26,804 nucleotides of DNA, taken from IMG/VR virus record IMGVR_UViG_3300025421_000060, positions 1-26,804 of that record; one strand, 5' to 3'. The notes below the pieces were generated by a model that was not told the origin of the DNA, ran no database searches, and worked only from the letters and a program-made list of their open reading frames with translations. This document shows, in pieces, positions 4,133 to 19,934 of the stretch. The translations under genes were made by a program, and so were the position numbers. The stretch's first letter is position 1. Every line of letters begins with the position of its first letter. The stretch is from a virus.

Positions 4133-4711
4133 ATGGGACTTCCAAACTGGTTCGATCATGTTCGAGGAACCTTTGTTGAGCAACTGTCGCCCCTGTTTGG
4201 GGCAAAGGATTTCACGGCACTGCAAGTTGGGGCGTATGTCGGTCATGCGTCGGAGTGGTTGCTTGCTTTCCTGCTTACTGACGAGGGATCACGGCTCGAC
4301 GATGTAGATACTTGGCTTGGAAGCGATGAAGCGGAGCATCAAGCCCTTGATTTCACTGAGGTAGAGCGGGAATACCGAGAGCGATTGAAGCATTGGCTTG
4401 CCCTCGGGCAGGTGTCGGCGTTCAAGATGACCTCCGACGACTTCTTCCGTATGGCCTGCCCCGTTGAGGAATACGACTTCATCTACATTGACGGCGACCA
4501 TCGCTCGCATCAGGTTCTCCGAGATGCGATCAACGCTGACGCTGGACTGAAGCACGGTGGAATACTTGCCTTCGACGACTACTCGTGGTCGGCGGGAACC
4601 GGAGTAGATGCCGACCAACCCAAACTTGCTATTGACGCTTTTCTGGCGACTTTTGGAAGATACTACGAGGTCCTCCACGAGGGGCAGCAAGTCTGGCTGC
4701 GGAAGCACTGA
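4133..4711 (+). CDS. Class I SAM-dependent methyltransferase
   Basis: A 192-residue protein with the nucleotide-binding loop VGAYVGHAS (residues 32-40), an acidic residue at the end of strand beta-2 (VDTWLGS) and YDFIYIDGDHRSHQV (112-126) followed by GGILAFDDYSW, the signature of Methyltransf_24-type small-molecule or sugar methyltransferases. ATG 4133 has no Shine-Dalgarno; TAATCT six bases upstream suggests a leaderless transcript. It stands directly before the terminase genes but has no obvious role in packaging. The substrate is unknown; modification of a cell-surface sugar or a phage component is possible. Confidence 0.75.
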   Translation: MGLPNWFDHVRGTFVEQLSPLFGAKDFTALQVGAYVGHASEWLLAFLLTDEGSRLDDVDTWLGSDEAEHQALDFTEVEREYRERLKHWLALGQVSAFKMTSDDFFRMACPVEEYDFIYIDGDHRSHQVLRDAINADAGLKHGGILAFDDYSWSAGTGVDADQPKLAIDAFLATFGRYYEVLHEGQQVWLRKH

Positions 4712-4742: not shown

Positions 4743-4844
4743 ATGATCGCAGCATTCCTCCTTGACCAATGGAAGCAGTATGCGGCGGCTTTTGGCGGCG
4801 GCGTGTTGTTCGTCTTACTGGTGTCCTTCTTCCGTAAGCCATGA
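4743..4844 (+). CDS. 33-residue membrane protein
   Basis: MIAAFLLDQWKQYAAAFGGG leads into a single hydrophobic helix (VLFVLLVSFF) with a short basic tail RKP. Its stop overlaps the terminase start as ATGA, so the two are coupled. AGGAAGGT lies upstream; TAGAAT also sits six bases before the ATG, so a leaderless start is possible. A preceding ATG at 4738 would give only two codons. Function unknown; it might mainly serve to couple translation into the terminase gene. Confidence 0.5.
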   Translation: MIAAFLLDQWKQYAAAFGGGVLFVLLVSFFRKP

Positions 4845-6577
4845 ACCCCGTCGTCCAACGCCTTCTCGGTGCCAACAAAGATCAACGTCGTGAAATCCTG
4901 ACCGGGCTGAAGCCCGAGGAACTCGCCATCGTGTTCCGAGAGTTGGAGGAGATCGAGCGCACCCCGCCCCGCCGGTGGTTCTGCGCCCGTGAAACCTGCA
5001 ACGGCAACCCCCATGTGGGATTTCACTGGTGCGAGCACCCCATTGACGGACAGCACACGCCGTTCTGCAAGCACGCTCGAACCCCGCAGCGACCACCCGC
5101 CGACGAGTCCAATACAAGCCCGTGGCTCACATGGTTTTTCAGCGGCGGTCGTGGGACGGGCAAGACACGAGCCGGAGCGGAGTGGGTTTTGGACTTGGTG
5201 TGGAACCAAGGCTACAAGCGCATCGCCCTCGTAGGCCGAACCCCTGCCGATGTTCGAGATGTGATGATCTACGGGGACAGCGGCATTATGAACTGCTCCC
5301 CGCCCAATGTGCGCCCACAGCACGAGCCGACGAAGCGGCGGCTGATCTGGCCGAACGGCGCACAGGCGTTCACCTACTCCGCTGCCGCCCCCTCGCAGTT
5401 GCGTGGTCCGCAGCACGACGCAGCGTGGTGTGTTTTGGAAGGCGAACTCGTGACGACCGCTCGGGGTGAAATCCCCATCGAACAAGTCGTTGTCGGCGAT
5501 CTCGTCGCCACCCGTGATGGCTGGAAGCAAGTCCTCGCCGCCACAATGACGAACCCTGACGCAGAGGTGCTGGAAATCCACACCGAGTCGGGCAATGTCC
5601 TGCGGTGCACCCCGAACCACCGTGTCTGGGTCAATGGGGACTGGGTGCTCGCCGAGAGCATCGTTCCAAGCGATAGAGTGCTGGCATGGATTTCACATAC
5701 GGACCCGCAGCGTGGATCGAGTGGGACGGAAGCCGCTGGCACCGTTCCAAAAGCGGCTACTACAAAGACCGGACAGGGAGCCTGCTTCATGTCGTCGTGT
5801 GGGAGCACTGCAACGGAAGGCGGCTCACGCCTGACGAGATCGTGCACCACATCGACCACAACCCCTCCAACAACACACCCGACAACCTGCGGGTCATGCT
5901 GCGAGCCGACCACATCAGGCTCCATATGGAGGAGCGTGGCTTCACGGCTCAGCCGGGTCTTGCCAAGATGGGTGCCGAAGCACTTTGGAAGAACCGCAAG
6001 CCACAGCCCGTCGTCTGCGATCAGTGTGGAACTCACTACGAAAGCGTCGGTATGCGAGCGAGGTTCTGCTCCAAAGCCTGTAGCAACGAGCACCTCCGTC
6101 TCCGCCGTATTTCAGAACGGGCAGAGAGGCGCAGTTTACGATCTCACGGTTGAGGGAGCACACGAGTTCTTCGCTGGCGGCATCCTCGTCCACAACTGCG
6201 ACGAGTTGGCAGCGTGGACCGATGCTCCAAAGGGCGACACCTTGGACACGAGTTGGAACAACCTCATGCTTGGACTTCGCCTCGGACAGATGCCTCGATG
6301 CCTCGTGACCACGACCCCGAAGCGGGTCAAGTTGGTTCGGCAAGTCATGGAGCGGCGCACCACGGTCGTCACGAACGGCTCGACCTACGAGAACCTCGAC
6401 AACCTCGCTCCGGCGTTCCGTGAGCAGGTGCTCGCTTCGTATGAGGGCACACGGATCGGCGAGCAGGAACTCAAAGGTGTCCTGCTGACCGATGTGGAAG
6501 GTGCGCTGTGGACGATGGAGATGATCGACAACGCCCGTGGTGAGTTTTGGAAGCCAGCCATGTTGGAACCGGCATGA
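4841..6577 (+). CDS. terL: Terminase large subunit, ATPase part, interrupted by an intein
   Basis: A 578-residue precursor that powers DNA packaging. Residues 101-109 (SGGRGTGKT) are the Walker A loop. The extein stops at AAW196, an intein fills residues 197-452, and the extein resumes with CDELAAW, so splicing would rebuild the Walker B motif around AWCDELAAW. Motif III-like CLVTTTPKR follows. Splicing leaves about 322 residues. An N-terminal Cys/His-rich stretch (C48, C53, C64, C76) could bind zinc, which is unusual. The ORF stops after the ATPase domain; the nuclease domain is the next gene, overlapping as ATGA. The start overlaps the 33-residue gene. Confidence 0.9.
   Translation: MNPVVQRLLGANKDQRREILTGLKPEELAIVFRELEEIERTPPRRWFCARETCNGNPHVGFHWCEHPIDGQHTPFCKHARTPQRPPADESNTSPWLTWFFSGGRGTGKTRAGAEWVLDLVWNQGYKRIALVGRTPADVRDVMIYGDSGIMNCSPPNVRPQHEPTKRRLIWPNGAQAFTYSAAAPSQLRGPQHDAAWCVLEGELVTTARGEIPIEQVVVGDLVATRDGWKQVLAATMTNPDAEVLEIHTESGNVLRCTPNHRVWVNGDWVLAESIVPSDRVLAWISHTDPQRGSSGTEAAGTVPKAATTKTGQGACFMSSCGSTATEGGSRLTRSCTTSTTTPPTTHPTTCGSCCEPTTSGSIWRSVASRLSRVLPRWVPKHFGRTASHSPSSAISVELTTKASVCERGSAPKPVATSTSVSAVFQNGQRGAVYDLTVEGAHEFFAGGILVHNCDELAAWTDAPKGDTLDTSWNNLMLGLRLGQMPRCLVTTTPKRVKLVRQVMERRTTVVTNGSTYENLDNLAPAFREQVLASYEGTRIGEQELKGVLLTDVEGALWTMEMIDNARGEFWKPAMLEPA
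5674..5679 (+). promoter_or_regulatory. Possible leaderless -10 box of the nested HNH gene
   Basis: TAGAGT lies exactly six bases before ATG 5686 of the nested endonuclease ORF, the same spacing seen at several other starts in the window. It lies inside intein coding sequence, so it may be chance, but no other translation signal for the ORF is obvious. Confidence 0.35.
5686..6153 (+). CDS. HNH homing endonuclease nested out of frame in the intein
   Basis: A 155-residue HNH endonuclease. The core is EIVHHIDHNPSNNTPDNLRV (residues 51-70), with DHIRLH after it, followed by a C-terminal zinc site CDQC...FCSKAC (Cys111, 114, 128, 132). The N-terminal WIEWDGSRWHR...GYY segment is common in phage HNH proteins. 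It lies wholly within the intein but in the -1 frame relative to the terminase, which stays open across it. Homing endonucleases in inteins are normally fused in frame. It has its own ATG with a TAGAGT six bases upstream. Expression is inferred. Confidence 0.8.
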   Translation: MDFTYGPAAWIEWDGSRWHRSKSGYYKDRTGSLLHVVVWEHCNGRRLTPDEIVHHIDHNPSNNTPDNLRVMLRADHIRLHMEERGFTAQPGLAKMGAEALWKNRKPQPVVCDQCGTHYESVGMRARFCSKACSNEHLRLRRISERAERRSLRSHG

Positions 6578-7203
6578 TTGAAATACACCCCGAGCAGTTC
6601 ACCAAAATCGTCATCGGTGTTGACCCTGCCATCACCTCGGGCGAGGACGCAGACGAAACGGGCATCATCGTTGTCGCCTCCGGTCCCCACCAGCCCTCGA
6701 CTTGTGTGATACCATCCTGCACCGCTCACGGCTACGTCCTGCAAGATGCCACGCCGCCCAAGTCCAACAAGAACTCCATTGACCGGTGGGTGAAGGTTGT
6801 CGTGGACCTCTACGACGAATGGAACGCCAACATCATCGTCGTTGAGAACAACGCCGGACGGGAACTTTTGGAAATGGCCTTGCGGACAGTGCGCTCCGAC
6901 TTGCCGATCCACCGCCCCAACGCCATCGAGAACAAGAAGGCACGAGCGGAACCTATCGTGGCTCTCTACGAGCAGGGGCGCATCCACCATGTAGGCGACC
7001 CGTTGCAGTTCGCCGAGTTGGAGGAACAGATGACGACATGGGTTCCAAAAGAGGGGAGCGGGCGAGGCTCGAAATCGCCTGACCGTGTGGACGCTCTCGT
7101 GTGGGCGTTGGCTGAACTCAACCTACAGGGCAAGAAGCCGAAGCAGGGAGTATCTGCCATCGCTCCCATCGGGCTGATGCAGAACAACGTCTGGTCGATT
7201 TGA
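6574..7203 (+). CDS. Terminase large subunit, nuclease part
   Basis: A 209-residue RNase H-like nuclease domain: IVIGVDPAITSGEDADETG (Asp17), NIIVVENNAGRELL (Glu91) and KSPDRVDALVWALAEL (Asp170/Asp173) supply the acidic metal-binding residues of terminase nucleases, which cut the concatemer during packaging. Normally this domain is fused to the ATPase. Here ATG 6574 overlaps the ATPase stop as ATGA, so the two would be made by coupled translation, or by a -1 shift. ATPase plus nuclease lengths add up to a normal terminase. A strong hairpin follows the gene. Confidence 0.85.
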   Translation: MIEIHPEQFTKIVIGVDPAITSGEDADETGIIVVASGPHQPSTCVIPSCTAHGYVLQDATPPKSNKNSIDRWVKVVVDLYDEWNANIIVVENNAGRELLEMALRTVRSDLPIHRPNAIENKKARAEPIVALYEQGRIHHVGDPLQFAELEEQMTTWVPKEGSGRGSKSPDRVDALVWALAELNLQGKKPKQGVSAIAPIGLMQNNVWSI

Positions 7204-7272: not shown

Positions 7273-7653
7273 CTATGGGACGATCAGGACTTCCTGAGTT
7301 GCAGGAGCCGTGTAGTGCTCGATGGCACGCTTGGCGTAGCGGTAAGCCGTAGGCTCACTGATGCCAAACGCCTTCGCCAACGGAGCGATGCGCTGCCCAG
7401 CGACAACACTTTGGTTGAAGGCATCGAGCCGTGCGCCGGTCAAAGCCCGGTAGGGACGACGCTTGCGGCTCACCTTGCGGGCACGGGGAACAACCGCCTT
7501 CGGCACAACCGCTGCCGTGGGTTTCGTGTTTGCGCTCGGAGCGGTGAGTCCTTGCAGGACGGTGGCAACCAACTTCGTTGCCTGCGCCTTGTCGCCGTTC
7601 AGCAGGACGATGATGGCTTCGCTCATTTGCGATGCGAGAGTTTCGGTAGTCAT
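7273..7653 (-). CDS. HTH DNA-binding protein
   Basis: A 126-residue protein with a helical N-terminus, an Ala/Pro-rich linker, a basic stretch (ARKVSRKRRPYRALT) and a C-terminal helix-turn-helix (IAPLAKAFGISEPTAYRYAK). The start at 7653 follows a perfect AGGAGGTGA. A longer frame upstream to 7986 overlaps the next gene and lacks support. It is the last gene of the amidoligase cluster, so it may be a regulator or DNA-targeting subunit for it. Confidence 0.75.
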   Translation of the reverse strand: MTTETLASQMSEAIIVLLNGDKAQATKLVATVLQGLTAPSANTKPTAAVVPKAVVPRARKVSRKRRPYRALTGARLDAFNQSVVAGQRIAPLAKAFGISEPTAYRYAKRAIEHYTAPATQEVLIVP

Positions 7654-7691: not shown

Positions 7692-8021
7692 TCATTCGAC
7701 ACCGTTCCATGCGGCGGAGAAATCCCACGCTTCTTGGAGCACGTCGTTCGGCTTTTGTCCGGTGACGGAGAGTTCGATGATGCCGTATTCCGCCAACTTG
7801 GCGAGGAACACCTCGTCCTCCATGTCGTCGTTGAGCAGAACCCGATACTGCATGAACAGCCGATAAGCGATGCCACGCTTCGGGTGCTTGTGATCCATTG
7901 GGTTGTGTGACCGCTCGCCGATGGTGGCGAGAATGTCGAAGGCGGAGGGAGCGGTAAAGGTTTCGCCGCCCCACACCACCGTCCAAAGAGCCTTGGGTGG
8001 ATACATGACGGGGACATTCAT
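7692..8021 (-). CDS. Hypothetical protein coupled to the amidotransferase
   Basis: A 109-residue protein starting MNVPVMYPPKALWTVVWGGE with no domain I can name. The start at 8021 overlaps the amidotransferase stop (ATGA) and follows AAGGAG within that gene. Such tight coupling suggests it works with the amidotransferase and amidoligase, perhaps as a substrate, carrier or partner. Its middle (RLFMQYRVLLNDDMEDEVFLAKLAE) is helical. Confidence 0.75.
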   Translation of the reverse strand: MNVPVMYPPKALWTVVWGGETFTAPSAFDILATIGERSHNPMDHKHPKRGIAYRLFMQYRVLLNDDMEDEVFLAKLAEYGIIELSVTGQKPNDVLQEAWDFSAAWNGVE

Positions 8022-8752
8022 GATGCGATCTCCTTCTTGCTCTGACCGATCTCGAAGCAGTCGGCGATATCGCCGTTGCGGATACGGAGGTAGGTCATCG
8101 GCTCGACTTCTTCGACCCACGACAGTTCCACGCCCGACCGCTGCGTGCCCTGCACGAGCAGAGGCATGGTGGAGGCGAACACGATGGAACCCTTCGCCGT
8201 TGCGCCGAGCACGAGCGGGCTGCCGTCCACACGAGCGAGGTGCAGGTCACGCTTGTCTCGTGCGTCCAGCCACGCCAGCGCAGCACGACCTTGGAGCGAG
8301 CGCAGCACATCGGCAGGGTGGTAAACGGTTTGGTCGATCAGGGCGAAGGCTGCTTCGCTGTCCACCTCAGCACGACGCTGCGCTCCGAGGTGCGAGAACA
8401 CCGCATCGTCGTTGCTCAGAACGCCGTTGTGCACGCCCACGATCTTGCCGCTGACGATGGGGTGGTTGTTGCCGTTGTTCTGCGGCGAACCCTGCGTAGC
8501 CCAACGGGTGTGCAGGACAGCACGCCGAGTGGACTTCGGCATGGACTTCAGATACGGCTCGAACAGCCGAGAGGGAACGGGAGCCTTGCTCACATGGATA
8601 CCCGCTACCTTTGTCTCTTTGTCGATCTGCACCCACGCTGCTCCGGTGGCATCACGGCCACGAGAAGCGATCTCATTGAGAAGGGACATGGACAACTTCC
8701 GTGCGTCCAACTTCTCATCTTGGTTCAAACAAAATCCTGCGATGCCACACAT
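8018..8752 (-). CDS. Class II glutamine amidotransferase
   Basis: A 244-residue Ntn-hydrolase-type glutaminase. The N-terminal MCGIAGF gives the nucleophile Cys2; SRGRDATG (30-37), LHTRWATQG (80-88), NNHPI with His97, and GVHNG (106-110) match the substrate-binding loops of the GlmS/PurF/AsnB glutaminase domain. No second catalytic domain is present, so the ammonia it releases must be used by a partner. The nearby amidoligase is the obvious candidate. AAAGGA precedes the start, and a promoter may lie just upstream (8787-8815). Confidence 0.88.
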   Translation of the reverse strand: MCGIAGFCLNQDEKLDARKLSMSLLNEIASRGRDATGAAWVQIDKETKVAGIHVSKAPVPSRLFEPYLKSMPKSTRRAVLHTRWATQGSPQNNGNNHPIVSGKIVGVHNGVLSNDDAVFSHLGAQRRAEVDSEAAFALIDQTVYHPADVLRSLQGRAALAWLDARDKRDLHLARVDGSPLVLGATAKGSIVFASTMPLLVQGTQRSGVELSWVEEVEPMTYLRIRNGDIADCFEIGQSKKEIAS

Positions 8753-8786
8753 GGATTTTTCCTTTCGGTTTGGGGTCGGTTGCTAT

Positions 8787-8815
8787 AGGATACTACAGTT
8801 CCCACCCCCTCGCAA
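8787..8815 (-). promoter_or_regulatory. Candidate promoter of the amidotransferase gene
   Basis: On the - strand TTGCGA (8815-8810), 17 bases, TATCCT (8792-8787). The -35 lies inside the loop and stem of the preceding hairpin, so transcription of the amidoligase could interfere with it. Confidence 0.4.
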
Positions 8816-8832
8816 GTTGAGAGGGTGGGAAC
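8798..8832 (-). terminator. Hairpin after the amidoligase gene
   Basis: GTTCCCACCC (8798-8807) and GGGTGGGAAC (8823-8832) form a 10-bp stem, extended by CTC/GAG after one mismatch, with a 7-base loop. It begins eight bases past the amidoligase stop. No T-run is visible. It may terminate or attenuate, separating amidoligase from amidotransferase expression. Confidence 0.65.
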
Positions 8833-8839
8833 CTTACTG

Positions 8840-9877
8840 CTAGTTCGCTGCTGCGAACCGTGCTGCTCGCTGCGAGAGGAACTGACGGCTCTCACTGTCG
8901 AGGTCAAGCCCACCGAGCAACTCGTCAATGTTGGCGTAAGCCGTCTGGTTGCCGGCGATGCCAGCCTCGACGATGGCGAGCACGAAGCAAATCCACTGAA
9001 CAGCCTTCTTGCCGTTGAGCGTGCCTTGGTGCTGACGGAACTCAATGGTTCCGTATCGGGCGTAAGCGTTGAGGTTGATCGTGCGGTACTTCTCACGGTG
9101 CTGCGTCGCCCGACGGATAGCGTGACGAGTGACCGCCTGACGGATTTCCTCGAACGCTCCACCGGCGATGCGCTGGTTCGTGGTCGGGACGATCTCCCGA
9201 GCGTAGAAGGCGTTGCGACGGCTCGGCGGAACCAACCCGTTGATGATGGCTTGGTTCATGGCGTAGAGGTCGAAGATGCTCATGATCTGAGCACCGGTCA
9301 AACCGTCCATGCCAACGTGCAAGTGGAAGCCACACTGCATATCCACATGACCACCTGCGCCCATGATGGCGGTGAGTGCGGTCATGACCGCCTGCAAGCC
9401 ATCCTGACCACGGAGGATCGGGCTGACCAACTCGCAGCCGGAAGCCACCGAAGCATCGGGCACGATCTTCCACATGGTCGAAACATCGTGGCGGTAGTGG
9501 GTCGCTGACTCCACATCCACCCCTGCGTCACGAAGCGTGCGGATAGCACTCTGCATGGACAAGCCCTTGAACTCGAACTCACAACCGAAGGTGCGGTTAG
9601 AGGGGATCGAGGGAACGCCGCTGACCGTGGCAACCGGAGCGACCGATGCGACCGATGCGACCGCCTGCGTCACCTGACCCTGACGGCTGCGAGCGGCACG
9701 GCAGGCTTCCGATGCGCCCTGTGCTGCACGGTAGCCCAGTCGCTGTGCGATGGTGGCGTAGGAGTATCCGGCTTCACGGAGGGCAAGCGCCCTGTCTTGA
9801 CGAGCGTGCGTCGCCGAGGTGTTCCGAGCGGAGATGCGGCTCGGGCGGTACTGCGCTGGGCGGTTCGTTGCGGGCAT
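8840..9877 (-). CDS. Amidoligase (COOH-NH2 ligase) with N-terminal HTH
   Basis: A 345-residue protein. The main domain has the glutamine-synthetase-like amidoligase pattern: FGCEFEF (97-103), MWKIVPDAS with GCELVSPIL (135-155), GGHVDMQCGFHLHVGM (175-190) and YGTIEFRQHQGTLN (275-288), holding the acidic and His residues that bind ATP and metal. This family forms amide or isopeptide bonds, often with Glu or Gln. Residues 27-50 (ALREAGYSYATIAQRLGY) look like a helix-turn-helix, an unusual fusion. Start 9877 follows GGGAGA. The promoter is at 9920-9948. An amidotransferase follows downstream. Confidence 0.85.
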   Translation of the reverse strand: MPATNRPAQYRPSRISARNTSATHARQDRALALREAGYSYATIAQRLGYRAAQGASEACRAARSRQGQVTQAVASVASVAPVATVSGVPSIPSNRTFGCEFEFKGLSMQSAIRTLRDAGVDVESATHYRHDVSTMWKIVPDASVASGCELVSPILRGQDGLQAVMTALTAIMGAGGHVDMQCGFHLHVGMDGLTGAQIMSIFDLYAMNQAIINGLVPPSRRNAFYAREIVPTTNQRIAGGAFEEIRQAVTRHAIRRATQHREKYRTINLNAYARYGTIEFRQHQGTLNGKKAVQWICFVLAIVEAGIAGNQTAYANIDELLGGLDLDSESRQFLSQRAARFAAAN

Positions 9878-10391: not shown

Positions 10392-10642
10392 CGAAGGCAA
10401 AGCATGGTCGCAAGCGTCGGCTCCGTTGGAAGCCGTGGGCGAAGTGGGTTCACCTCGGAGCCTTCACTTGGGCAGCAGCCTTCGTGTCGTTCCGAGCGGA
10501 CAGACTAAACGCTCGCACCTTCGATGGTCAGTTGTTCCTCAGTGCTATGTGGACGGTCATCATCTACGCCGTCCTCACGCTGGTTCTCGGGTTCCTGATC
10601 TCGACGAGCGAGAAGCATCCGAGCGGAGACTACGAGGGCTGA
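10388..10642 (+). CDS. Small membrane protein with two predicted helices
   Basis: Eighty-four residues: a basic N-terminus (MTKAKHGRKRRLRWKPWAKW), a first hydrophobic segment around WVHLGAFTWAAAFVSF and a second around AMWTVIIYAVLTLVLGFLI. It starts with GTG coupled to the previous gene. Its 3' end overlaps the end of the convergent glycosyltransferase gene by 13 bases. Function unknown; a membrane-level superinfection or host-takeover role would be a guess. Confidence 0.7.
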   Translation: MTKAKHGRKRRLRWKPWAKWVHLGAFTWAAAFVSFRADRLNARTFDGQLFLSAMWTVIIYAVLTLVLGFLISTSEKHPSGDYEG

Positions 10643-11769
10643 GCGACCGGCGGCTGAGGCTGCTGCGGAACGATCCCGTTCTTCGCATCGAGGAACATCG
10701 TCAGGTTCATGAATAGGCGGCTGCGTTCGGGGCACTGTAGGCGAAGTGCCTCGTTCGTCGCTGCGATGGCATCGTCGAGCATACCGAGGTTGCCGTAGCA
10801 TACGGCGAGCCGGTCATGAGGGAGCCAAGTGTAGCACGTTTCCAAAACGAAACCCTCGATGGGTCGCACCATGCCGACGCACGCCTTGTAGAACGCCATC
10901 GCAGATCGCCAGTTCTGCTTCTCGTAGGCGAGGTCGCCGAGAGCCATGAACGCTTCGGCACGGCTCGCATCAAATCGGAGCGCACGAAAATACGCATCGC
11001 ACGACGCTTCCTCCGAACCGAGTTGGCGGTGGCAGTTGCCGAGCGAGATCAGGCTGTCGTAATGCTCCCATGAAAAATAGTTCATGTTGAGGAAGTGGTC
11101 GTAGGCTTCCACCGCTTCAGCCCACCGCTTGTGGTCACGCAGTTCGTTGGCGTAGTAGTAGGCGGTGCGGGTCGTGGTGTCGCCCTCGTCGAGGAGCCGC
11201 CGCAAAATCTTGATGTTGCGCTCCGTCGGTGCGTTGTTCAGTGCGAGCGGGTCGTCCACCCATGCGTCCTGCCAGAGCATTGCGTTTTGGTTCGAGAAAT
11301 CGAGATACTCGTGAACCGCCCCGATCCACTGCGTCCCCGTCGCCTTGCGAAACACACGGGGCGTGTTGAACTTGAACACCACGGCTCCGTCGTCGGTGAT
11401 GCCTCGGTTGATGTTGCACCACACGAAGTCCACCTTCTCGACCGTCTTGGCGAGGTGGTCTTTGAGCGAGAGGAAGCCAGAGGAAGCCTTGGGCGGGATA
11501 ATGTCGCCACAGTCGAGCCAGATGATCCACTTGCCCCGGCAGTGTTTGATGGCCTCGTTGCGGGCTGCCGAAAAATCGTCGATCCACTCAAAGTGAAATA
11601 CCCGTGCCCCATGCGCCTTGGCGATGGCAACCGTATCGTCGGTGGAACCGGTGTCCACCACCACGAGTTCGTCGCAGAACACCTTTGCGCTTTCGAGCGT
11701 CTGAGCGATGTGCTCAGCCCCGTTCTTGACGATCACGCTCAGCGACCAGTTGATCGGTCCGTTCCCCAT
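10630..11769 (-). CDS. GT2-family glycosyltransferase with TPR-like C-terminus
   Basis: A 379-residue protein. The N-terminal GT-A domain shows LSVIVKNGAEHIAQTLES, VVVDTGSTDDTVAIAK (36-51), FSAARNEAIKHCRGKWIIWLDCGD (the last acidic pair in the place of the DxD metal motif). From about residue 190 the sequence becomes helical repeats of TPR type (TAYYYANELRDHKRWAEAVEAY, AFMALGDLAYEKQNWRSAM). SunS-like and phage GT2-TPR proteins glycosylate proteins or DNA. The start follows AGGAGAGG. It lies downstream of two DNA methyltransferases, so a DNA or virion modification role is possible. Confidence 0.85.
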   Translation of the reverse strand: MGNGPINWSLSVIVKNGAEHIAQTLESAKVFCDELVVVDTGSTDDTVAIAKAHGARVFHFEWIDDFSAARNEAIKHCRGKWIIWLDCGDIIPPKASSGFLSLKDHLAKTVEKVDFVWCNINRGITDDGAVVFKFNTPRVFRKATGTQWIGAVHEYLDFSNQNAMLWQDAWVDDPLALNNAPTERNIKILRRLLDEGDTTTRTAYYYANELRDHKRWAEAVEAYDHFLNMNYFSWEHYDSLISLGNCHRQLGSEEASCDAYFRALRFDASRAEAFMALGDLAYEKQNWRSAMAFYKACVGMVRPIEGFVLETCYTWLPHDRLAVCYGNLGMLDDAIAATNEALRLQCPERSRLFMNLTMFLDAKNGIVPQQPQPPVAQPS

Positions 11770-11783
11770 AGTGAAATCCTCTC

Positions 11784-13283
11784 CTAAAAAAGTGTCGGTG
11801 CGTCAGGTGTGATGGCTTCGACTTGCTTAGCGTACTCTTTTTCAGCCCACGCCGTCCGAGCCTTGATGATCGGCCAGTAATCCTCAGTCATCTCGCAGCC
11901 AATCCATTCAAAGCCTTCCATGATGGCAGCGCAGGCAGTTGTGCCACTACCGAGGAACGGGTCAAGGATTGTGCCACCGGGAGGCGTGACCATCTTGACG
12001 AGGTAGCGCATGAGGGCGATGGGCTTGACGGTTGGGTGGATGTTGGCGGTGACTTTGGAACGGGTCTTGTACGGCACTTGCATAGCGTCTTGCCCCTCGT
12101 CACGCCCTGTCAGCATTTGTTCAGGCAACCCTTCCAACCCTGCGTTGCGCTCGGACTTACTGGCCTTAGCGCAGTAGAAGTAACGGGCTGCGGAGCCACC
12201 ATCGGCATAACCGTCAATGGCATTCTTGACGCCAGATAGACCAACGCTATTAGTGCTTGCGCCACCTTTGCGATGACCTGACTTTGAGCCGTTGCCAGTG
12301 CTTGCCGTTATCGGAAACCCCTCCAGCACTTCATCGCTTCCGTCGTGGATGACGTTGGCAGGCCAGCGACCTTGAGTGCTTGCCACAAATCCGTCGCCTT
12401 CGTAGCCATTCACAAAGCCGGAAGTAGCCTTGGCTCCACCGCCGAATCCATCAGCCTCACCAACTCGTGAAGCGTCAATGTTCAGCGCACCCGTTCCCCA
12501 CTCCAGCACGTTCGAGGCAACTGTTCCGGTAAGGGGCTTACGAGCAACGACGATTGGTTCGTGAGCAGGTTTGAGTGCCGTTCCCCAGCCCTGCCATTGT
12601 TGAGCCTCGGGAGTGGCTGGTGCGGTGATTGGAACTATTTTGTTGGCATTAGCATTGTCGCCTTCTGCTTGGCGCATACCAAATGTTTCACCGGAACCCA
12701 TACCGGCTTCTTTGTAGCCCACTATTTCACGCTTTGCTTCCGCTAGGTCGGCGTATGGCAAATCAAGAAAATCACGCAAAACGTTGAACTGTTCTGGTGA
12801 AATAGATTGGGCGTGCGAAGCCTTGTTGTAAAGCCAGCCCGTTGTTTTGCCGTTTTTTGACGGGAACAAATCGGTTAGTTGTTTCTTGGTAATACCCTTT
12901 TCCTCTGCCACCTTTAGGCAAAGGTCAATGAACCACCCAATGTTTTCACCACCTTGCTTGTCTATTGCCTTACTCACGTCCAGCGACTTCGGGAAGCCCG
13001 ACCCGTAGAGCCACATAATCTGGTCACGAACCTCAAAGCCAGCATCTTCGACAGCGCAGGCAAGGCGGTGATACGTGCGAGAACCACCGAAGGCAAGCAG
13101 GTGTCCACCCGGCTTCAGCACACGCAGGCACTCGGTCCACAGTTGCACCGAGTAAGCAATACCGGAGTTGTCCCACGCTTTGCCCATAAAGCCAAGTTCG
13201 TAGGGCGGATCGGTAACGATGGAGTCCACCGAGTTGTCTGGCATCTCAGCCACAAGTTCTAAACAGTTGCCACGAAGCAGCAT
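11784..13283 (-). CDS. Site-specific DNA methyltransferase (N6-adenine or N4-cytosine)
   Basis: A 499-residue enzyme that should methylate phage DNA. Catalytic motif IV is TDPPYELGF (DPPY at 25-28) and motif I is DPFLGSGTT (441-449), preceded by HPTVKPIALMRYLVK; this order places it among beta-type N6/N4 amino-methyltransferases. Residues of about 115-200 form an insert with a helical, HTH-like look (ITKKQLTDLFPSKNG) absent from its paralogue. A Gly-rich middle (RKPLTGTVASNVLEWGTG ... GSAARYFYCAK) is likely the target-recognition region. No restriction enzyme is next to it. TAATG overlap links it to the upstream paralogue. Confidence 0.88.
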   Translation of the reverse strand: MLLRGNCLELVAEMPDNSVDSIVTDPPYELGFMGKAWDNSGIAYSVQLWTECLRVLKPGGHLLAFGGSRTYHRLACAVEDAGFEVRDQIMWLYGSGFPKSLDVSKAIDKQGGENIGWFIDLCLKVAEEKGITKKQLTDLFPSKNGKTTGWLYNKASHAQSISPEQFNVLRDFLDLPYADLAEAKREIVGYKEAGMGSGETFGMRQAEGDNANANKIVPITAPATPEAQQWQGWGTALKPAHEPIVVARKPLTGTVASNVLEWGTGALNIDASRVGEADGFGGGAKATSGFVNGYEGDGFVASTQGRWPANVIHDGSDEVLEGFPITASTGNGSKSGHRKGGASTNSVGLSGVKNAIDGYADGGSAARYFYCAKASKSERNAGLEGLPEQMLTGRDEGQDAMQVPYKTRSKVTANIHPTVKPIALMRYLVKMVTPPGGTILDPFLGSGTTACAAIMEGFEWIGCEMTEDYWPIIKARTAWAEKEYAKQVEAITPDAPTLF

Positions 13284-14575
13284 TACTTGTCTCCTGCCTT
13301 AGTCATACCCTCTGCTGAAATCGCTTCAGCGATGGTTGGATTGTCGAATGGGTCGAGAACTACGCCGCCGAGTGGGGTAATCAGTTTCACGAGGTAGCGG
13401 AATAGTGAAATCGGCTTTGGGGCGGTGGCGAAAAATCGTGCGGCTGAGCCGCTACCACCATAACCGCCCGACCTTTCATGGACACCGACACCAAACATGC
13501 CTACTGCGCTGCTTTTTCCCGCTACTCCGTATTTACTGACGGGGAACCCTGCCAGCACTTCCTCACTACCGTCGTGGATGACGTTGGCAGGCCAGCGACC
13601 AAGTTCGTGCTTCTGCGAACGGTATTCTGGGTTCATGGAGCCGTTGAAATACCGACCTTCGTGGTCAACGGTGGCGTTCGATGTTCCCCAAACTCCGTCC
13701 ATGTTCCCTGCAACCCTTGACCCGTCAATGTTGATCCCGCCGACCCCGTATTCCAAAACATTTGCCGCCACGGTGCCGTCGAGGGGCTTTCTCCCGAGGA
13801 CAATGGACAGGTGCGCTATTTCGTCCTCCGTGTAAGGGAGTTGCTGAAAAAATCGTGCTGCGGAGCCAGAACCGCCAAACCCGCCCCATTTTTCGTGACT
13901 ACCTACATCGAACATGCCGACACCTGCGTTGCGCCGACCCGCCACCCCGTCTTTGCTCGATGGAAAATCCAAAGCAGGGCAACCTTCGGCGCACTCGTAA
14001 ATCGGCGAGGAAACTACTTGCCCCGTCCATCCATCGTGCTCGTATCCATTGACGAAACCCGATGTTGCCTTCGAGCCGCCGCCAAAACTGTCTGGGGCTT
14101 GTCCGATAATCCTGCACTCAGGGAGGTGGGAGATCATCACATTGGCAGGCCACCTTCCGGTGACGGTTGCCGAGCCAGACTTCTTGTTCTTGCCGCCGCC
14201 GGTGGTTTCAAAGTTGCCGGAGGTCATCGTGAGGTCATAGGTGCGTTCCTCCGCCCCGACCCTCGAAGCGTCAATATTCATCGCCCCAACCCCGTATTTC
14301 AGCACATTGGACGCAACGGTTCCCTCTAGGGGCTTGCGAGCCAATACTGCGGAGTTGTGACGCTTGTGGAGCCAGATCAGTTGGTCACGAACCTCGAAAC
14401 CGGCATCTTCGATGGCTACGGCGACACGGTGATACTGCCTCGGCTCGGAAATGGCGATTACATGGCCGCCCGGCTTTAGGACACGGAGGCACTCAACCCA
14501 CAACTCGATCCCGATGCCCTCTAGCGGCATTTCAGCGATGACGCTATCCACGCTGCACTCGGGGAGTTGGTTCAC
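13283..14575 (-). CDS. Catalytically inactive-looking DNA methyltransferase paralogue
   Basis: A 430-residue homologue of the downstream methyltransferase. The DPPY motif is replaced by AEMPLEG (residues 14-20) and DPFLGSGTT by DPFDNPTIAE (408-417), so SAM binding and catalysis should be lost. The flanking LWVECLRVLKPGGHVIAI and YHRVAVAIEDAGFEVRDQLIWL segments are preserved. The middle is duplicated: RKPLEGTVASNVLKYGVGAMN ... GSGSAARFF appears twice (second copy RKPLDGTVAANVLEYGVGG). GTG 14575 is the first start after an in-frame stop; about 13 residues of the paralogue's N-terminus are missing. It may be a DNA-recognition partner or a decaying gene. Confidence 0.8.
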   Translation of the reverse strand: MNQLPECSVDSVIAEMPLEGIGIELWVECLRVLKPGGHVIAISEPRQYHRVAVAIEDAGFEVRDQLIWLHKRHNSAVLARKPLEGTVASNVLKYGVGAMNIDASRVGAEERTYDLTMTSGNFETTGGGKNKKSGSATVTGRWPANVMISHLPECRIIGQAPDSFGGGSKATSGFVNGYEHDGWTGQVVSSPIYECAEGCPALDFPSSKDGVAGRRNAGVGMFDVGSHEKWGGFGGSGSAARFFQQLPYTEDEIAHLSIVLGRKPLDGTVAANVLEYGVGGINIDGSRVAGNMDGVWGTSNATVDHEGRYFNGSMNPEYRSQKHELGRWPANVIHDGSEEVLAGFPVSKYGVAGKSSAVGMFGVGVHERSGGYGGSGSAARFFATAPKPISLFRYLVKLITPLGGVVLDPFDNPTIAEAISAEGMTKAGDK

Positions 14576-15679: not shown

Positions 15680-15870
15680 AAACCCTCGCCAACCTGCTTG
15701 CCCTGATCTTGATTTTGGTCATCATCGCTGCCGTTTGGGTCATGGCGGTCGGACCGATCTTCGCCTACCTCATGTGGGGCTGGAAATCCGCCATCGGTGC
15801 GCTCTGCTTGTCGTTCGCCATCGCTTGCACCTTCCAACTTGTCGCATCATTCCTGCCGAAAAAAAAGTGA
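15676..15870 (+). CDS. Small membrane protein with two helices
   Basis: Sixty-four residues: LLALILILVIIAAVWVMAV forms the first membrane helix, IGALCLSFAIACTFQLVASF the second, with a basic FLPKKK tail. Coupled to the previous gene by ATGA and to the deaminase by GTGA. Function unknown. Confidence 0.75.
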   Translation: MKTLANLLALILILVIIAAVWVMAVGPIFAYLMWGWKSAIGALCLSFAIACTFQLVASFLPKKK

Positions 15871-16382
15871 ACGAGGCTTACGCCTACGAAATCATGCGTC
15901 TCGTCATGGACGCTGCTCAGGGGTCGCCTGATCCGTCCACCCAAAATGCTGCGGTCATCGTAAATCCGTGGCGAGGGGTCGCACCCGAGACGCTGGCGGT
16001 AAATCGCTTCCCGACAGGGGTGCAGGAAAATCCTGAACGGTGGGAGCGACCGGGCAAGTATCTGTTCGTCGAGCACGCCGAGCGCAATGCCATCTACGCT
16101 GCGGCACGACACGGCATCGCAACAAAAAACATGATGCTCGTCGCTGTATGGGCTGCTTGTGCCGACTGTGCCCGAGCCATCATTCAGGCCGAAATATCTA
16201 CGCTCGTCCGCTATGTGAGCACCGAGCACCTGCATTGGAGCGACAGCACGAACGCCGCAGAGAAAATGTTGGAGGAAGCAGGCGTGGAGATCGTGACCCT
16301 TGACCGCCCGATGCCCGATGTTGCACCGCTGCGCCGCAACGAAAATGTGTGGTTGCCGTCAGGTGCTACACCCATCTGCTAA
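15867..16382 (+). CDS. dCMP deaminase-like protein
   Basis: A 171-residue cytidine-deaminase-fold protein. VEHAERNAIYAAARHG (residues 69-84) gives the H-A-E zinc and proton-relay motif, and WAACADCARAII (95-106) the C-x-x-C half; the usual Pro before the first Cys is Ala. Size and the ERNAIYAA segment fit deoxycytidylate deaminases, which turn dCMP to dUMP for dTTP synthesis. GTG 15867 is coupled to the membrane-protein gene (GTGA); no Shine-Dalgarno is visible, only an A-run. Phage enzymes of this kind adjust the nucleotide pool during replication. Confidence 0.82.
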   Translation: MNEAYAYEIMRLVMDAAQGSPDPSTQNAAVIVNPWRGVAPETLAVNRFPTGVQENPERWERPGKYLFVEHAERNAIYAAARHGIATKNMMLVAVWAACADCARAIIQAEISTLVRYVSTEHLHWSDSTNAAEKMLEEAGVEIVTLDRPMPDVAPLRRNENVWLPSGATPIC

Positions 16383-19083: not shown

Positions 19084-19515
19084 CTACCTCACGATCTCGT
19101 AGTGATGGGGGACTGCTCGCTTGTGGCTGTTAGCGGGCGAAAATCTTGGGTTCGGGTATGCCTTCGATGAACCGCCATGCACCGAGAGTGGCGTTGGCTC
19201 AGGCGTGGGCTTCGGGTTCAGCACGGTCTTTTCCGTGAGCGCAACCAACGCATCGTCCCAAGCATCGAAATCAAAACTGCCGTCCTGATCGAAGCCATCG
19301 TCGTCCGTCGTGTCGCCGAAAATCTTGTCGTATTCCTCGGTGTCGAACAAGTAGAACGACAACTCATCCAACTCGCAACCGATGAGATAGCACAGATCAA
19401 GGTCGCTCATGGTGCGAACCAAATGTTCCGGCGTGTCGTAGGCTTCAGACACCGCCACAATGTCTGCCTCGCTCATGTTGCGAGCGAGCAAGCGTGGGTC
19501 AAGTGCTCTGGTCAT
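19084..19515 (-). CDS. Acidic hypothetical protein
   Basis: A 143-residue protein whose middle is strongly acidic (IFGDTTDDDGFDQDGSFDFD), followed by a Pro-rich linker and a basic tail. No domain recognised; the charge pattern could mimic DNA. The start overlaps the upstream gene's stop as TAATG. A longer frame to 19596 lies inside that gene and is not used. Confidence 0.7.
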   Translation of the reverse strand: MTRALDPRLLARNMSEADIVAVSEAYDTPEHLVRTMSDLDLCYLIGCELDELSFYLFDTEEYDKIFGDTTDDDGFDQDGSFDFDAWDDALVALTEKTVLNPKPTPEPTPLSVHGGSSKAYPNPRFSPANSHKRAVPHHYEIVR

Positions 19516-19934
19516 TAGTTCCACCACCCCTCGGTGGCACGAACCCAGTCGTTCTCCGGCACAGCATCGCCGTAGCCGTCTCGGTTCCAAACGCACACGG
19601 TCGCAGGCATCTCGCCCTCGCCGAAAATCACGCTCAACTCCTCGATGGTGTAGCCAGCGTTTTGCTCCATCTCCAACATGGAGATCACCTGACGGTTGAG
19701 CGGGAGCCGATAGAGTTCGCCGGTCACCACATCGCTAGGGTGCTCGGACGGCACGAGAAACGGGAAGCCTCGGTGCGAGGCGTAGTGCAGCCGAGCGTAG
19801 GGCATCTGAACCGTGCCCAAATCTTCGATGATCTCGCCTGCGATCCAGTTGTGAAGGCGTTGCCCCTTCCGCAGCGTGCCGTAAGCGAAAAATGTGATGG
19901 TCGGTGTTTCCTGTTGTGTAGGTGTAGTGGTCAT
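19515..19934 (-). CDS. Gamma-glutamylcyclotransferase-like (AIG2/GGCT) protein
   Basis: A 139-residue GGCT-fold protein. FFAYGTLRKGQRLH (residues 15-28) is the family's Y-G-T/S-L substrate-binding loop, followed by GTVQMPYARLHYA and VVTGELYRLP; MLEMEQNAGYTIEEL (86-100) supplies the acidic catalytic residue and the usual Tyr. Such enzymes release 5-oxoproline from gamma-glutamyl amides. That is chemically the reverse of what amidoligases build. The ATG is seven bases after TATAGT, so the mRNA is probably leaderless. The promoter has the same CTCAAC layout as the amidoligase promoter. Confidence 0.82.
   Translation of the reverse strand: MTTTPTQQETPTITFFAYGTLRKGQRLHNWIAGEIIEDLGTVQMPYARLHYASHRGFPFLVPSEHPSDVVTGELYRLPLNRQVISMLEMEQNAGYTIEELSVIFGEGEMPATVCVWNRDGYGDAVPENDWVRATEGWWN

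Follow-up and report, generated by a model that had tools for sequence, protein, structure and literature searches.

A reduced phage amidoligase module of three enzymes and a small amidoligase-associated protein

Amidoligase modules are widespread in phages. In the viral contig analysed here (the window, a linear IMG/VR virus record of 26.8 kb), the module is reduced to three enzymes and one small protein, namely an amidoligase (AL), a lone glutaminase (GAT), a cyclotransferase (GGCT) and a protein of 109 residues (P109), and the four genes very probably act as one unit. The general idea of a module combining AL, GAT and GGCT, with a COOH-NH2 ligase and an ATP-grasp enzyme besides, has already been published. 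The findings that are new here are a family of small partner proteins of approximately 80 residues without a prior name, for which the name amidoligase-associated small protein (AAP) is coined, fusions of GAT and GGCT that link the enzymes, and a quantified four-gene set. A sequence-only reading of the window had joined the four families into one tagging system; their functional grouping is upheld, whereas the claims regarding tagging and its targets go beyond the evidence.

Genes of the window and their predicted products

The following features are considered.

8840-9877, minus strand: AL, amidoligase (PF12224, Amidoligase_2)
8018-8752, minus strand: GAT, lone class-II glutaminase (GATase_6)
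7692-8021, minus strand: P109, protein of 109 residues without a match in Pfam, PHROG or NCBIfam
19515-19934, minus strand: GGCT, cyclotransferase of the AIG2/GGACT family (PF06094)
7273-7653, minus strand: protein of 126 residues with a C-terminal helix-turn-helix (HTH) (HTH_28, E 0.0018, sub-threshold)

The first four open reading frames, as originally proposed, are genuine genes on the minus strand, and the three enzymes have intact catalytic motifs. Compared with those of a relative (L006), AL, GAT, P109 and GGCT have amino acid identities of 0.57, 0.68, 0.61 and 0.53, respectively, and each of the four differs chiefly at third codon positions, which indicates selection at the protein level. 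AL and GAT are separated by 87 nt, and the start codon of P109 overlaps the stop codon of GAT as ATGA. GGCT is located approximately 10 kb upstream of the AL-GAT-P109 cluster and is therefore not part of its operon in the window, so that the arrangement is one of three clustered genes and one distant gene. The frame at 7273-7653 lies downstream of P109 and has a good ribosome-binding site, AGGAGGTGA; its product has phmmer matches in seven related loci, and the gene follows P109 in several relatives. This HTH protein is possibly a regulator, and its membership in the module is uncertain.

Related contigs run to 108-121 kb, and the window is therefore probably a fragment. The best matches of its terminase are from Microbacterium, Arthrobacter and Streptomyces phages, with others besides actinobacterial phages also similar, and an actinobacterial host is likely from this resemblance. 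The large terminase gene at 4841-6577 (plus strand) contains an intein (Intein_splicing, E 9.3e-12; Hint_2), and the C-terminal part of the terminase is read in 6547-7203.

AL matches the Pfam Amidoligase_2 profile far above its cut-off (E 5.8e-30; 105 bits against 22), is predicted to have the glutamine synthetase (GS) fold and keeps the active-site residues, and is thus a member of this family. The GS-fold domain spans residues ~94-345. The AlphaFold2 model (mean pLDDT 86.8) aligns with glutamine synthetase 5dm3 (VIA-align Z 13.7, rmsd 3.6, 212 aligned), the best Foldseek match is the carboxylate-amine ligase YbdK (1r8g, E 3.7e-5), and the structural matches include the gamma-glutamylmethylamide synthetase GmaS. 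AL thus resembles glutamine synthetase and YbdK in predicted fold and in the GS-type pattern of conserved Glu, Arg and His residues, although identity in the structural alignments is 7-16% and AL is a phage gene with accessory partners. Among 51 homologues, G98, E100, E102, D141, E149, G183, H185, H187, R220, E279, R281, H283 and others are invariant. The N-terminus comprises a three-helix HTH-like domain (residues 20-66, with sub-threshold Pfam HTH matches) and a disordered linker (~69-90); this domain is common to the nearest relatives and the ALs of Arthrobacter phages and is absent from most ALs.

GAT is a stand-alone, GlmS-like amidotransferase/glutaminase of class II (Ntn) that begins with Met-Cys and matches GATase_6 (1e-18), phrog_14519 (2.1e-53) and the GlmS chain 1xff (3.1e-11). 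Residues M1-C2, R31-G32, H81, R83, N109-G110 and D131 are invariant in 19 homologues, and GAT has the N-terminal nucleophile Cys2, the Arg, the Asn-Gly and the Asp of class-II amidotransferases. A fused synthase domain, which is usual but not universal in that class, is absent from GAT, the 244 residues of which comprise the GAT domain only, and AL would hence have to be the acceptor enzyme. GGCT matches PF06094 (1.6e-12; 48.5 bits against a cut-off of 22.8) and phrog_2520 (3.8e-12), and retains the YG[ST]L motif of the family as YGTLR together with the Glu at the catalytic position (M89-E90...G94-Y95). Conservation of catalytic residues, on which the proposed grouping depended, is accordingly found in the homologues of AL and GAT and in the retained motif of GGCT.

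Recurrence of the module genes in phages and bacteria

A scan of viral contigs for AL yielded 80 loci. Searches over the whole record were made in the 15 that contain the nearest ALs (L001, L002, L005, L006, L008-L015, L024, L092 and L094); L005 among them is almost identical to the window, and a few pairs belong to the same species. GAT was found in 15/15 and GGCT in 13/15, and in the two records without GGCT (L011 and L014) the flank on which it is expected is too short. GGCT was found in 0/9 records that have a related terminase and no full AL (G005 matches the HTH region of AL alone). When ALs were clustered at 90% identity, one or more of AAP, GAT and GGCT accompanied AL in 58 of the 62 clusters with at least 2 kb of downstream sequence; such partner counts are lower bounds because of the limited flanks, and the clusters are not all independent events. 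An independent scan of bacterial genomes for an AL motif alone gave 27 loci, with GAT just downstream in 22, of which one, in a Microthrixaceae contig, has the order GGCT-AL-GAT.

Among 50,697 phage records, AL and GAT were found on 14 Arthrobacter records representing 10 distinct phages (four are duplicated), and the GGCT of phage Waltz and the small protein of phage Ottawa, used as queries, recovered exactly these 14 records and no others. The gene order in Ottawa is GGCT-AL-GAT-small protein. The Waltz record opens with the small protein and closes with GAT; circular permutation of the genome, which one of these Arthrobacter records states, would give the Ottawa order there too. Arthrobacter Laroyevirus (cluster AL) and Ottawa/Kharcho share with the window the order GGCT-AL-GAT-AAP and the N-terminal HTH on AL, whereas GGCT directly adjoins AL in the Arthrobacter phages and the small protein of Ottawa has 87 residues. 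Among the genes of Arthrobacter cluster AL, GGCT and the amidoligase had been listed as atypical for phages (PMC5513430). Since these phages are culturable and carry the four genes contiguously, gene deletion and product analysis are practical in them.

The families thus recur together, as the sequence-only reading had supposed, in the nearest-AL records, the Arthrobacter phages, the AL clusters and the genome scan. The module contents vary: GAT is absent from many AL modules, including those of Bacillus and Porphyromonas and several AL-AAP-GGCT loci. Bacillus phage 035JT001 and the Porphyromonas phage loci resemble the window in having an AAP directly after AL, and differ from it in that no GAT was found and AL has no HTH; in 035JT001, GGCT is 1.1 kb from AL.

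Furthermore, in locus L070 a GAT domain and, C-terminal to it, a GGCT domain are encoded as a single protein, and a fusion of the same type is present in phage C75C1 and virus MW202828 (fusion coordinates L070:3308-4219, L110:5708-6604 and L111:4001-5218). AL is approximately 1 kb from the fusion in C75C1, and a weak AL match is immediately upstream of it in MW202828. In the public records these fusions are annotated solely as gamma-glutamyl cyclotransferase, and no description of them was found in the searchable literature. Judged by their sequences, the fusions tie the enzymes together beyond gene neighbourhood. The distance of GGCT in the window and the variable contents might suggest functionally unrelated neighbours, together by chance or shared ancestry; however, the association is repeated in distantly related phages with hosts of different phyla, and the fusions and the exact set matches in the 50,697 records render this explanation extremely improbable.

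Related cassettes have been described. In RIO-1-like podoviruses, seven genes that include amidoligases, ATP-grasp, GGCT and GAT were reported as a 'peptidoglycan modification cassette', which is conserved in further phages such as phiEco32 and LUZ24 and for which a role in preventing superinfection was hypothesised (PMC5498523); the same reading was given for a LUZ24-like phage (PMC11945000), and the cassette was tabulated in UFV-P2 (PMC3890496). The idea originates from Iyer et al. 2009, as cited in PMC10580990 and PMC11318856. The predicted peptidoglycan modification genes of Pseudoalteromonas phage HP1 are expressed immediately on infection (PMC7082346), which fits early host takeover. The action on peptidoglycan of the LUZ24/RIO-1-type cassette is an inference in PMC5498523 and PMC11945000, and no biochemical test of the cassette and no reported product of an amidoligase module were found in the accessible literature.

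The cassette of the LUZ24/RIO-1/phiEco32 type shares with the window the presence of Amidoligase_2, class-II GAT and AIG2/GGCT in one phage (LUZ24 gp18, gp19 and gp22 were checked). The window clade differs in the HTH on AL and in AAP/P109, no AAP being recognised in LUZ24. Among ten window-related records, of which eight are possibly incomplete contigs and two are complete phage genomes, the COOH-NH2 ligase PF14395 was found in 0/10 (the controls LUZ24 and MW202615 were positive) and a RimK-type ATP-grasp, searched for as the RimK family, in 0/10 (control genomes were positive in 13/14). The window clade is therefore a reduced and rearranged variant rather than a plain member of the cassette.

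P109 and the amidoligase-associated small proteins

AAP genes adjoin amidoligases in Bacillus, Porphyromonas, Arthrobacter and uncultured phages. P109 had no match in a tblastn search against phages or a profile search of PDB sequences; its treatment as an orphan was abandoned after profile comparison with the small neighbours of other ALs, which places it, by sequence, as a larger member of the AAP family. A common pattern is seen in P109 and other small frames adjacent to AL, comprising a beta-hairpin with a D/N-G turn, a helix, A-x-R and FxxxLxxxG. In hhalign, P109 matched the AAP alignment with a probability of 94.6 and a score of 42.6-43.3 over 76 columns, that is, over most of the ~80-residue core, whereas 100 column shuffles scored at most 16.7 and 88 small-ORF families from the same loci at most 18.6 unless the family was P109 or AAP. 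The match survives the omission of any one member, and the probability falls to 88.6 without the Ottawa protein. In the first AAP profile search, a ThyX fragment (1.8e-4) ranked ahead of the best P109 (7.6e-4), so the assignment rests on the full-length hhalign comparison and its controls and not on HMM E-values.

Of 17 P109 loci, 16 have AL and GAT, and the remaining contig is cut within GAT; a Porphyromonas AAP used as a query matched ten phage records, all on the AL list; and AAP/P109 was seen solely beside amidoligases in the searches run. Reverse scans with two single small AAPs recovered only the respective query. No AAP was found in LUZ24, MW202615, C75C1 and FP_Taranis, or in the Bacteroidales genome loci. 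Separately, a conserved protein of ~107 residues (FVxxNGxTxSEALKxAWxN...IREAxGTL) adjoins AL-GAT pairs of the Bacteroidales type in L047, L049, L051 and L061.

The AlphaFold2 model predicts that P109 is folded (pLDDT 83.4). Its best viral match in a fold search is an unnamed phage protein of 80 residues (E 4.4e-3), and PDB matches have Z scores of at most 2.5 and are uninformative. The C-termini of P109 proteins vary (NGVE, KKVK, GGKK, GESK and others), and no column of the AAP alignment is invariant or nearly so, hence none is an invariant Lys, Glu or Gln. With no residue conserved across the family, AAP is suggested to bind rather than to catalyse.

These properties bear on strict protein tagging, wherein proteins of the host or the phage would receive P109 or a glutamyl chain from AL and lose it again through GGCT, much in the manner of Pup and PafA. 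PafA has the GS fold, as AL is predicted to have, and a small protein is co-encoded in overlap with GAT. Pup, however, is a disordered tag with a conserved C-terminal Gly-Gly-Glu/Gln, and the predicted fold and variable C-terminus of P109 led to the rejection of P109 as a Pup-like tag. The lack of an invariant Lys, Glu or Gln in the AAP alignment also argues against tagging, which is accordingly rated very unlikely. The earlier suggestion that P109 is itself the modified target is not favoured either: the wider family offers no invariant acceptor residue and the C-termini of P109 vary, which fits a binding partner better. The AAP family may serve as a handle for pulling down the target of the module.

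Proposed chemistry and candidate targets

The four genes would constitute a phage unit that both makes and unmakes amide bonds to glutamate-like groups. GAT would release ammonia, with glutamate, from glutamine. Like glutamine synthetase, AL would use ATP to activate a carboxylate, in the form of an acyl phosphate, and join it to ammonia or an amine. GGCT would cyclise gamma-glutamyl groups off amines as 5-oxoproline and thereby reverse or trim gamma-glutamyl products. This assignment of ammonia supply, bond formation and removal stands at roughly even chances, and the substrates of GGCT could instead be other gamma-glutamyl compounds, unconnected with AL. AAP/P109 would most likely have no catalytic role and serve, by binding, to position AL or the substrate of AL. 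From its HTH, AL may regulate the operon in which it lies or be targeted to DNA. Given the many AL modules that lack GAT, ammonia from GAT cannot be required by all ALs, and in AL-AAP-GGCT modules without GAT a gamma-glutamyl amide is a likelier AL product than a simple carboxamide; where present, GAT may secure the ammonia supply or alter the AL product.

The favoured target would be a host envelope precursor, either a peptidoglycan stem peptide or its amino acid pool. This proposal, by analogy with the described cassettes, is a tentative one and the weakest step of the explanation. In L114 (PV036447.1, 33057-34500), AL is directly followed by a GGCT of the YGSN type, and the record assigns this phage to Anaeroplasmataceae, which belong to the Mollicutes, generally wall-less bacteria. 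The presence of AL and GGCT in a phage so assigned would argue against peptidoglycan as a universal target; a scan of the lysis and tail genes of L114 recognised no peptidoglycan hydrolase.

A metabolic (auxiliary) module that shifts pools of glutamine, glutamate and gamma-glutamyl-amines (e.g., polyamines), with no macromolecular target, would suit every host, even one without a wall. There are known gamma-glutamyl-amine synthetases of the GS-like type, as the titles of PMC5403932 and PMC8998196 indicate, the structural match of AL to GmaS points in the same direction, and gamma-glutamyl bonds are what all three enzyme families act on. A dedicated small partner and an HTH on AL are, however, unexpected for a plain metabolic enzyme, and no polyamine genes were recognised within the window; this explanation is considered rather unlikely.

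Nucleic-acid-directed chemistry, in which the HTH takes AL to DNA and a modified base or a DNA-bound protein is amidated or glutamylated, is favoured by the HTH-like domain that AL conserves at its N-terminus both in the window clade and in the Arthrobacter phages; modules are often located among replication or packaging genes, and DNA methyltransferase genes are close by in the window. Against this, most ALs have no HTH, the HTH may merely autoregulate, and no base-hypermodification genes were recognised within the window, and such chemistry is regarded as distinctly improbable. A broader scheme, a reversible glutamylation/amidation system with AL as the writer, GAT as the ammonia supplier, GGCT as the eraser and AAP as the adaptor, in which HTH and AAP would choose a cytosolic or DNA-bound target instead of the cell wall, is judged unlikely.

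Other genes are present around the module. A family-2 glycosyltransferase fused to TPR repeats is encoded at 10630-11769 (minus strand), and its relatives are found near AL in seven related loci, where the two do not share a strand in every case. Two adjoining N4/N6 DNA methyltransferase-like genes occupy 11784-14575 (minus strand), the second of which looks degenerate and has repeated RKPLxGTVAxNVL segments. On the plus strand, a methyltransferase-like protein (PF13578, 3.1e-12) is encoded at 4133-4711 and a cytidine/deoxycytidylate-deaminase-like protein (PF00383, 4.5e-9) at 15735-16382.
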